From: Candidatus Fusobacterium pullicola
Lineage (GTDB): Bacteria; Fusobacteriota; Fusobacteriia; Fusobacteriales; Fusobacteriaceae
Direction of reading: 5' to 3'
NCBI GenBank assembly: GCA_018883725.1
Contig: JAHLFN010000067.1
Location: forward strand, 1-64,000
Length of the DNA: 64,000 bases
Positions 6,728 through 9,710 of this stretch are shown here, in pieces. Below the pieces are notes generated by a model. That model ran no database searches and had not been told where the DNA came from. It saw only the letters and a program-made list of their open reading frames with translations. The number at the start of each line of letters is the position of its first letter. Position 1 is the first letter of the stretch. A program made the translations under genes and the position numbers.

Positions 6728-6750
6728 ATTTGAAAATTAGCTAAAAATAA

Positions 6751-6810
6751 AATTCAAGAATGACAAAATTCTCTTTTCTTTGAATATAAGTCATTCTTGA
6801 ATTATTTTAA
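6751..6810. terminator. bidirectional terminator
   Basis: AATTCAAGAATGAC (6751-6764) and its perfect complement at 6790-6803 form a 14-bp stem between the convergent DUF554 and esterase genes. A/T-rich tracts on both sides let it serve either strand. Confidence 0.65.
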
Positions 6811-6836
6811 TTTCTTATTCCATCTTTTTTGTTAGC

Positions 6837-7595
6837 TTATTTATACAATCCCAGCTCATATAACCATGTTAATGTTTCTTTTTCCCAAGACTCCTCATTA
6901 TGAGCTCCATCAACCATCATATGTGGAAATACTGTTACTCCTTTTTGAGAAAATATTCTTGTAACTATCATATTTTTTTCAGTTCCTACTGCTAATTGCT
7001 TTTTGGTATGAAATTCATGATTTCCCCAACTTATATAAGCCTTTGTTTTCTTATGAATTTTAAACTTTGAAATATCATCTACTAACTTTTTAAAAATATG
7101 ATCATAAAAAGAAGATACACATATTCCCATTGAGAATATATCTGATCTTGCCGCTAATCCATATACAGACATCAGTCCTCCCATTGAACTACCACCTAAA
7201 GCTGTATACTCTCTTTCCGGTTTTGTAGGAAATTTTTCATCTATATATGGCTTTAATACATTACAAATCCACTCTATAGTAATCTTTCCTAGTCCTGTTA
7301 CCTCTCCAAAAATCTTATCATTAAAAGAGTACGGAGAAAATTCACATAATCTCCTATTTCCTTCATGATTACATTCCAATCCAACAATTATAACTCTTTG
7401 TTTATGATTATCTAATACCTCTTTTATCCCCCATGATTTTCCATATGTAGCATCTGAATCGTAGAACAGATTATGTCCATCAAACATATATATTACCGGA
7501 AATTTTTCATTTAGTTGAATGTCATCTGGTAAATATATGTGAAGCATTCTATGAAGATTGAACGGTTCTATATATATTCTCTCTTTTAATACCAT
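6837..7595 (-). CDS. alpha/beta-hydrolase esterase (putative esterase family, Fes-like fold)
   Basis: Serine hydrolase with the nucleophile elbow G-S-S-M-G at residues 135-139 (Ser137) and a C-terminal DGAHNEESW likely carrying the catalytic His. The N-terminal VIYMFDGHNLFYD segment is typical of the enterochelin-esterase-like family. It has no signal peptide, so it is cytoplasmic. It is the last gene of a three-gene operon: its ribosome site overlaps the stop of the second esterase, which itself follows an ATP-grasp ligase. The substrate is unknown. A role in hydrolysing or transferring an ester or amide product of the ligase is inference. Confidence 0.85.
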   Translation of the reverse strand: MVLKERIYIEPFNLHRMLHIYLPDDIQLNEKFPVIYMFDGHNLFYDSDATYGKSWGIKEVLDNHKQRVIIVGLECNHEGNRRLCEFSPYSFNDKIFGEVTGLGKITIEWICNVLKPYIDEKFPTKPEREYTALGGSSMGGLMSVYGLAARSDIFSMGICVSSFYDHIFKKLVDDISKFKIHKKTKAYISWGNHEFHTKKQLAVGTEKNMIVTRIFSQKGVTVFPHMMVDGAHNEESWEKETLTWLYELGLYK

Positions 7596-7604
7596 AACTA
7601 ACTC

Positions 7605-8357
7605 CTACACTACAAATTTTAAAAAGTAAGGGAATTGTACTTTCCACCAAGGCCAATCATGGTCTACATCATATCCCCAAAAATCTATCCATACTGGAAC
7701 TTGTAATCTATCAAATTCTACTTTTAAATCGGCAGTATCCTTGATACACTCTTCTTCCCATCTTCCTTGACCACAACATAGAATAATATCAGAATTTCTA
7801 TATTTTCCTAAAACCTCATGATTCCAAGGTATATTTCTCATATAATCATTTGGAGAATTTTCATATATTGTTCCATTATTATAGTTTGGGAAGAAATATC
7901 CAGCATGGTATAGTCCACTTAAAGCTATCACTCCATTAAAAACATCTGGACGACGTAAGAAAAAGTTTAAAGCGTGATAAGCTCCCATACTACACCCAGT
8001 AGTCATAAATTGACAGTTATAATCTCCAGTTCTATCTCCATAAATCTGTCTAAATTTTGGTATAGCCTCATCCATTACATATTTGAACCATCTATCATGT
8101 TGAGCTATTCTATTTTCATAGTTTTCTCCTAATCTAGACCAAGACTCACCATCTATACTATCTACACAAAACAGCATAATCTTCCCTTGGTTTATATATT
8201 CAGTTGCTGCATCTACCATTCCAAAATTATAGAAATCATAAAACCTTCCATCTTGAGCTGGAAAAACAACTATTGGTCTTCCACCATGACCATATACTAA
8301 AAATTCCATCTCTCTTCCTAAGTTGTGACTGTAGTGTCTATAATGATTTACATGCAT
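7605..8357 (-). CDS. second esterase-family alpha/beta hydrolase
   Basis: A 250-residue serine hydrolase with the elbow G-C-S-M-G at 121-125 (Ser123) and a His-rich C-terminal YDVDHDWPWW that could supply the catalytic His. The opening HYSHNLGREMEFLVYGHGGRP aligns with the COG4947-type esterase group. It has no signal peptide. It sits between the ATP-grasp gene (16 bases upstream) and the first esterase (9 bases downstream). The two esterases are clearly different subfamilies, not a recent duplication. Substrate unknown. Confidence 0.85.
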   Translation of the reverse strand: MHVNHYRHYSHNLGREMEFLVYGHGGRPIVVFPAQDGRFYDFYNFGMVDAATEYINQGKIMLFCVDSIDGESWSRLGENYENRIAQHDRWFKYVMDEAIPKFRQIYGDRTGDYNCQFMTTGCSMGAYHALNFFLRRPDVFNGVIALSGLYHAGYFFPNYNNGTIYENSPNDYMRNIPWNHEVLGKYRNSDIILCCGQGRWEEECIKDTADLKVEFDRLQVPVWIDFWGYDVDHDWPWWKVQFPYFLKFVV

Positions 8358-8373
8358 AAAACTCCCCCTAATA

Positions 8374-9564
8374 TTACATTTTTTTTAAGTAAAAATCAAT
8401 AAACTCTATAGCTTGATCTTGCTCTGGAAATCTAGCTGTCAACATATCATTTCCCATAGCTCCAGATAATACCTCTGGCATTCTCTCTTTCATTACAATA
8501 TTGTTCCCATATTTACTCAATACACTATCTATACTATGAACATAATTATAACCATCTCTTCTAGCTGCATATACGCAACAATAAGGTCTTGATTCTTTAT
8601 CAAAATACCCCTCATTATATGTTACCATATTTGCCCAAATTTGATATACATCTATATCATTAGCATAGTTCATCATATCTGGTGTATATCCTCCAGGTGG
8701 ACGCATATTCACTTCTAAACCTATAATATCCCCTTTTTTCCCTAATCCTGGCTTATCTTCAAGTAACCTAAAAAATTCACAATGGAAAACTCTACTATTA
8801 GTATCAAAAGTTTGAACAACTTTTCTTCCAGCTTCTTTTAAATCTTCTGGAATCTCTCTATATGAGTAATACATTACATCCATTCCATTATTTACTATAT
8901 CCATTATTGGTACTGGATATACATGAGCTGTTTCAAATATAATTTCTTTATCTCTTCCAGCTATTCCATCATAAGAGAGTAACTCACCATTTACAAACTC
9001 TTCCATGATATACTGTTCTTCTCCTAAATTATCATAGAAAAATTTCATCTCTTCTTCATTTTTTAATTTATAAGTAGCTGCTGCCCCTACCCCATTATCT
9101 GGCTTAACAACTACTGGAAATCCCACTGATTTTATAAACTTTTTCCCCTCTTCAAAAGTTGTTACTAAATGGTATCTAGCTGTTTTTACTCCAGCCTTCT
9201 TATAAAATTCCTTCATTTTGCTCTTGTATTTTATTCCAGCAATTTTATCATTTCTTAATCCTGAAGTAATATTAAAGTCTGTACGTAGTTGTGCATCACG
9301 TAGTAACCAATACTCGTTATTTGACTCTAACCAATCTATCTTTCCATATTTAAACGCAAAGTAAGCACAGGCTCTATACACCTCATCGTAATTTTCTAAT
9401 GAAGATACTTTATAATACTCATTCAACGAACTTTTTAACTCATCACTTAAAAAGTCATATTCTGCATCTCCTATTCCTAAAGTATTAACTCCATTATTTT
9501 TTAATCCTCTACAAAAGTTCCAATAACTTTTTGGAAAATTTGGTGAAATAAAAATAAAATTCAT
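8374..9564 (-). CDS. ATP-grasp carboxylate-amine ligase-like protein
   Basis: A 396-residue ATP-grasp enzyme. After a Rossmann-like preATP-grasp region come the ATP-binding strands VGFPVVVKPDNGVGAAATY (about 147-165), the hinge YIMEEFVNGELLSYDG (about 185-200) and the Mg-binding GLEVNMRPPGGYTPDM near 280. Such enzymes join a carboxylate to an amine, thiol or other nucleophile through an acylphosphate. It heads an operon with two esterases. The substrate cannot be read from sequence; amino-acid ligase or natural-product tailoring roles are possible. AGGGAGGG precedes ATG 9564. Confidence 0.85.
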   Translation of the reverse strand: MNFIFISPNFPKSYWNFCRGLKNNGVNTLGIGDAEYDFLSDELKSSLNEYYKVSSLENYDEVYRACAYFAFKYGKIDWLESNNEYWLLRDAQLRTDFNITSGLRNDKIAGIKYKSKMKEFYKKAGVKTARYHLVTTFEEGKKFIKSVGFPVVVKPDNGVGAAATYKLKNEEEMKFFYDNLGEEQYIMEEFVNGELLSYDGIAGRDKEIIFETAHVYPVPIMDIVNNGMDVMYYSYREIPEDLKEAGRKVVQTFDTNSRVFHCEFFRLLEDKPGLGKKGDIIGLEVNMRPPGGYTPDMMNYANDIDVYQIWANMVTYNEGYFDKESRPYCCVYAARRDGYNYVHSIDSVLSKYGNNIVMKERMPEVLSGAMGNDMLTARFPEQDQAIEFIDFYLKKM

Positions 9565-9610
9565 AAAATCCCTCCCTATTATGTTTATGAATATTTAGTT
9601 ATTAAGATAC

Positions 9611-9655
9611 AATATATCACACTTATTTTATAAAGTAAAGTTAAATTTAACTTTA
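9611..9655 (-). promoter_or_regulatory. promoter and palindromic operator of the ATP-grasp/esterase operon
   Basis: TTTACT (complement of 9634-9639), a 17-base spacer and TATATT (complement of 9611-9616) form the promoter. TAAAGTTAAATTTAACTTTA at 9636-9655 is a perfect 20-bp palindrome overlapping the -35 element, a classic repressor position. No regulator gene lies next to the operon. Confidence 0.55.
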
Positions 9656-9667
9656 AATAAAATTATT

Positions 9668-9710
9668 AAGAGGTTATTACAAGTTCCCACTTATAATAAC
9701 CTCTTTGTTA
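9668..9710 (-). terminator. terminator after sstT
   Basis: AAGAGGTTATTA (9668-9679) pairs perfectly with TAATAACCTCTT (9694-9705) around a 14-base loop, just past the sstT stop. T-rich bases follow on both strands. Confidence 0.75.

Follow-up and report, generated by a model that had tools for sequence, protein, structure and literature searches.

In Candidatus Fusobacterium pullicola, three consecutive genes encode an ATP-grasp ligase (LIG) and two α/β-hydrolases related to esterases (EST2 and EST1). We judge it about evenly balanced that LIG and EST2, joined here by EST1, constitute a short pathway in the cytoplasm that makes or remodels a single small metabolite of the amide type. This reading is based on the fold, on conserved catalytic residues, on genetic linkage and on co-occurrence across genomes, all of which were obtained directly. 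The genes lie in a 64,000-nucleotide stretch of contig JAHLFN010000067.1 (assembly GCA_018883725.1; hereafter the window), with the following features:

6735..6819, no strand assigned: imperfect inverted repeat in the gap separating EST1 from the convergent DUF554 gene, possibly a shared terminator
6837..7595, minus strand: EST1, second PF00756 α/β-hydrolase, 252 aa (GSS137MGG; conserved E194 and H232), the optional third part
7605..8357, minus strand: EST2, PF00756 α/β-hydrolase, 250 aa (nucleophile elbow GCS123MG; conserved E201 and H233), the usual partner of LIG
8374..9564, minus strand: LIG, ATP-grasp ligase, 396 aa, whose nearest solved folds are L-amino-acid ligases (RizA, BacD/YwfE)
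9611..9639, minus strand: promoter-like site TTTACT-17-(TG)TATATT 5' of LIG, a consensus match only, similar in near relatives
9668..9705, minus strand: terminator-like hairpin of 17 pairs between LIG and the upstream sstT (2 such sites in the region, 0.7 expected)

The three genes are intact ORFs separated by 16 (LIG/EST2) and 9 (EST2/EST1) bases, and the ORF coordinates and Pfam matches bear out the original prediction of a ligase closely packed with two serine hydrolases. Good ribosome-binding sites can be read directly at all three starts (AGGGAGGG, AGGGGGAG and AGGAG). The upstream neighbour on the same strand is sstT, encoding a serine/threonine symporter (model score 635 bits), while a convergent DUF554 gene lies downstream of EST1. 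The proposal that one promoter serves all three genes is in keeping with the promoter-like site (read from 9639 to 9611) and the hairpin upstream of it, but since AT-rich sequence of this kind yields such matches at close to the chance rate (28 extended -10 matches, compared with 18.9 ± 5.2 in shuffles), a single promoter is a plausible arrangement rather than an established one. Riboswitch control was rejected, as an Rfam search returned no element at threshold and only sub-threshold eukaryotic families. A hydrophobic N-terminal stretch was sought in LIG, EST2 and EST1 and found in none of the three, in agreement with the predicted absence of signal peptides. Relative to the nearest relative, dN/dS is 0.072 for LIG, 0.074 for EST2 and 0.065 for EST1, and all three genes therefore look functional and under purifying selection. 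A Fusobacterium mortiferum contig carries the whole trio at 98-99% identity (99% for LIG), which places the host, a gut bacterium, in that species or very near it. In another congener (L029, 7171-9911), stops and frameshifts break LIG and EST2 and leave EST1 intact, reflecting either decay or an assembly error.

In Pfam, LIG passes general ATP-grasp models only, and among the 25 NCBIfam families listed, none of the curated cut-offs is reached. Identification as a housekeeping ligase of the PurD/PurK/CarB type was rejected with the curated models (purK, 34.5 bits against a cut-off of 318; purD, 33.2 against 288). The predicted structure (pLDDT 89) finds its best Foldseek matches in the PDB in RizA (4wd3), BacD/YwfE (3wnz) and a Bacillus licheniformis ligase (3vot). 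The residues H261-x-E263 and E284-x-N286-x-R288-x-x-G291 are 99-100% conserved across 147 LIG sequences, and in a profile alignment these motifs fall on the HLE and E-x-x-x-R-x-x-G-G motifs of RizA. LIG thus shares with the L-amino-acid ligases the ATP-grasp fold with its conserved ATP/Mg residues and the HxE and E-x-(N)-x-R-x-x-G motifs, but differs from them in showing at most 19% identity in structural alignments, and it reaches no curated model of a named ligase (23.4 bits with the BacD model, cut-off 850), so that we do not claim membership in this group. Unlike in systems of the BacD or RizA type, no bacilysin or rhizocticin genes were seen near LIG. A further difference lies in the stretch E80-S-N-N-E84-Y-W86, which is nearly invariant in LIG and aligns with the RizA stretch VSTTEKS that holds T81, K83 and S84, positions of the RizA acceptor pocket (PMC9321006). 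Near-invariance together with unlikeness to RizA suggests, from the alignment, that a single acceptor may be common to the whole LIG family and differ from that of RizA. LIG is a separate family with a dipeptide-ligase-like fold and catalytic residues and its own conserved acceptor pocket.

A LIG tree (quick method, no bootstrap) contains three ligase clades. The main clade consists of ligases accompanied by EST2, the second of ligases encoded as the third gene in many Erysipelotrichaceae loci, and the third includes the second ligase of Holdemania and ligases adjacent to EST1. Most solo LIG genes, many of them from small-genome Bacilli, group in a single 33-row clade. A distant relative (30%) in Massilia litorea (L099, 6878-10179) is accompanied by a class III aminotransferase and a methyltransferase, with no EST2.

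The two esterases score 55.7 and 38.9 bits in PF00756 (cut-off 22), and both combine a score above the gathering threshold with the conserved Ser, acid and His of this family. In the alignments these residues are 97-100% conserved (S123/E201/H233 in EST2; S137/E194/H232 in EST1), giving predicted triads assigned by sequence and not by coordinates. The predicted structure of EST2 (pLDDT 95) is nearest in fold to feruloyl esterases, S-formylglutathione hydrolases and antigen 85, members of PF00756 with which EST2 and EST1 share the fold and the conserved Ser, Glu and His; the profile matches of EST1 are to feruloyl and siderophore-type esterases. Curated PF00756 subfamily models were not reached (18.1 bits with the enterochelin esterase model, cut-off 222; 15.2 bits with that for S-formylglutathione hydrolase, cut-off 281.7). 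An enterobactin-type siderophore esterase system was rejected, given the failure of the enterochelin esterase model and the absence of siderophore genes nearby. The two esterases are only remotely related (14% identity; hhalign 93%), in line with the expectation that they represent different subfamilies.

The neighbours of EST2 relatives give some indication of the reaction. Outside LIG operons, such relatives share an operon with xylose isomerase and xylulokinase genes (xylA-xylB) in five loci (L133, L138, L165, L167, L184), a context that hints at a cytoplasmic sugar-ester esterase. In two loci (L139, L141) they lie directly 3' of the serine acetyltransferase gene cysE, once with a 4-base overlap, and in L101 one is found with an AXE1 acetyl-xylan esterase gene. 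Together these contexts point to cleavage of O-acyl esters in the cytoplasm. EST2 relatives from xylA-xylB and cysE contexts group as one nested clade (support 100/100), whose genomes keep LIG elsewhere, in an EST2 tree that has the LIG-linked state spread over its entire extent.

Linkage of the two genes is retained through extensive rearrangement. Loci with LIG relatives numbered 49 in a first scan; Bacillota and Fusobacteriota account for nearly all of them and Bacteroidota for one. EST2 adjoins LIG in nearly all of the 49, frequently with overlaps of 1-4 bases. The gene order is LIG-EST2-EST1 in Fusobacterium and Traorella, EST1-EST2-LIG in Lachnospiraceae, LIG-EST2-LIG' (LIG' being a second ligase) in many Erysipelotrichaceae, and LIG-EST2-EST1-LIG' in Holdemania, while LIG-EST2 occurs alone in Solobacterium and in the sister family within the order of Fusobacterium (putative Leptotrichiaceae). 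The pair is also present in plasmid records of Peptoclostridium and of the Rhizobiaceae Pararhizobium and Sinorhizobium. Across the fetched loci, a set biased by selection on LIG or EST2 and including some repeats, EST2 touches LIG in 97 of 118 cases, EST1 being present in 30 of these and a second LIG in 19. The LIG-EST2 pair forms the conserved core, with EST1 or a second LIG paralogue as an optional third part; the trio as such was not upheld as the unit, EST1 being absent from most LIG-EST2 loci and replaceable by a second ligase. Copies from Fusobacterium and from the putative Leptotrichiaceae occupy different parts of both the LIG and the EST2 trees, which suggests two acquisitions. In two genomes (L221, 4942-9327; L222, 5060-8830), a locus with LIG and EST1 but no EST2 is flanked by genes for a NUDIX hydrolase and a metallophosphoesterase.

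Presence and absence of the two genes also agree across genomes. In Fusobacteriota, LIG and EST2 are found in the identical 30 of 98 genomes and are adjacent every time, counting as EST2 any match above 100 bits (the remaining matches are below 45 bits). A sample of 392 genomes of Bacillota, the phylum of Traorella, contains EST2 (above 130 bits) in 52 and LIG in 100, and LIG is present in 50 of the 52 EST2 genomes (Fisher 1.7e-32, a p-value that overstates independence, as these statistics ignore shared ancestry). Strong EST1 matches (at least 235 bits) occur in 31 genomes of this sample, 27 with EST2 and 28 with LIG, often at another locus. The bit-score thresholds were picked after the score gap had been seen, and the better argument for linkage is the variety of gene orders, rather than the p-values. 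LIG-EST2 linkage in other phyla is far above chance. The prospect that the genes would prove unlinked in most relatives was not borne out for LIG and EST2 by the neighbourhood survey (adjacent in 30/30 Fusobacteriota and 34/52 Bacillota), and the idea of one cytoplasmic functional unit gains from a linkage that persists in different phyla even where the gene order has changed, and from gene co-occurrence.

ATP-grasp ligases phosphorylate a carboxylate and then condense it with an amine (PMC12568646; PMC9321006). By analogy, LIG very probably does the same: ATP would activate the carboxylate as an acyl phosphate, which would then be joined to an amine as in dipeptide-forming ATP-grasp enzymes, giving an amide rather than an ester or thioester. 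EST2, and in some lineages EST1, would cut an O-acyl ester on a building block or on the product of this presumably shared pathway. This step may come before or after ligation; the originally proposed order, in which a conjugate is built and then trimmed or transferred, is not favoured, as esterase action before ligation fits equally well. Several findings count against a pathway of this kind. LIG stands without an adjoining esterase in the 33-row clade, which indicates that EST2 is not always needed, and 18 of the 52 EST2 genes in Bacillota are found apart from LIG. Nor does any further pathway gene recur next to the pair among the 80 tightly spaced flanking genes listed, in agreement with the earlier remark that no recognised pathway gene sits alongside.

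The strongest alternative, a possibility we hold distinctly less likely than the pathway above, is that the esterases free an acid from an imported plant or host ester, and that LIG then attaches the acid to an amine or an amino acid, giving a conjugate to be used, stored or exported. The resemblance of both EST1 and EST2 to feruloyl/CE1-type esterases in sequence and fold would suit such a role, as would the occurrence of an EST2 subclade in xylose and acetyl-transfer operons. ABC half-transporters are encoded 3' of EST2, as a pair in most putative Leptotrichiaceae loci and singly in two Erysipelotrichaceae loci (L051, L168), and export of the product, also in the pathway favoured above, is a possible, weakly supported extension; however, ABC transporters are common and the neighbourhood could reflect chance or vertical inheritance, and neither an importer nor a degradative gene recurs next to the pair.

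Some ATP-grasp ligases form ester bonds, as the D-Ala-D-Lac ligases do. LIG might accordingly make an ester or depsipeptide-type bond that EST2 or EST1 hydrolyses, in a signal or storage compound that is made and unmade, and a dedicated esterase partner would fit an ester product. The nearest folds to LIG are nevertheless amide-forming dipeptide ligases, and a futile cycle within one operon would need separate control, of which none is visible. We regard this reading as improbable. Slightly more so is the view that general house-cleaning enzymes have become neighbours by chance, with no pathway in common: some loci hold LIG or EST2 by itself, and in others LIG or EST1 adjoins NUDIX, HAD and phosphoesterase genes, but adjacency in several phyla with different gene orders and identical presence and absence in Fusobacteriota are hard to obtain by chance. 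Modification of a protein or ribosomal peptide by LIG, edited by the esterases in a graspetide- or tag-like manner, has a precedent in the ATP-grasp enzymes of graspetides (PMC8939145) but is very unlikely, given intergenic gaps too small for a precursor, the lack of a recurring short gene alongside (among ORFs above about 66 aa) and a LIG fold of the small-substrate ligase type.

The amide pathway has close parallels in NRPS-independent peptide pathways (dapdiamide DdaF, tabtoxin TabS and E-64 Cp1B; PMC12568646), in which stand-alone ATP-grasp enzymes form amides between small substrates, as proposed for LIG. These pathways contain further synthases, whereas LIG pairs with an esterase; neither esterase nor hydrolase appears as a word in PMC12568646. 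A literature search, incomplete in its coverage, found no description of the LIG-EST2 pair. We tentatively raise the possibility, to which we give rather less than even weight, that LIG and EST2 represent an undescribed pathway of two enzymes that is widely shared among host-associated anaerobes and serves a new small amide metabolite. Bacillota and Fusobacteriota living in the gut, the rumen or the mouth commonly carry the pair. Even Bacilli with ~1 Mb genomes keep the ligase, and its product there, if the proposal is true, would be near a core metabolite; for these reasons the product may be a metabolite of such anaerobes that has been overlooked. Such strict pairing offers a direct handle, namely two soluble, easily expressed enzymes expected to share a substrate or product.

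Two other identities were rejected: an anti-phage defence system, as no PADLOC model matches LIG, EST2 or EST1, and a phage origin, for which the sole matches are three short 'phage' contigs that lack annotation, come from human faeces and are probably bacterial fragments. Elsewhere in the same genome, contig C84 (L226, 105-6380) encodes, closely packed on one strand, a MATE efflux protein, an ATP-grasp ligase, a radical SAM enzyme, an aminotransferase and a second ATP-grasp ligase, a group that, with gene functions read by eye, resembles a cluster for the biosynthesis of a small molecule or peptide.
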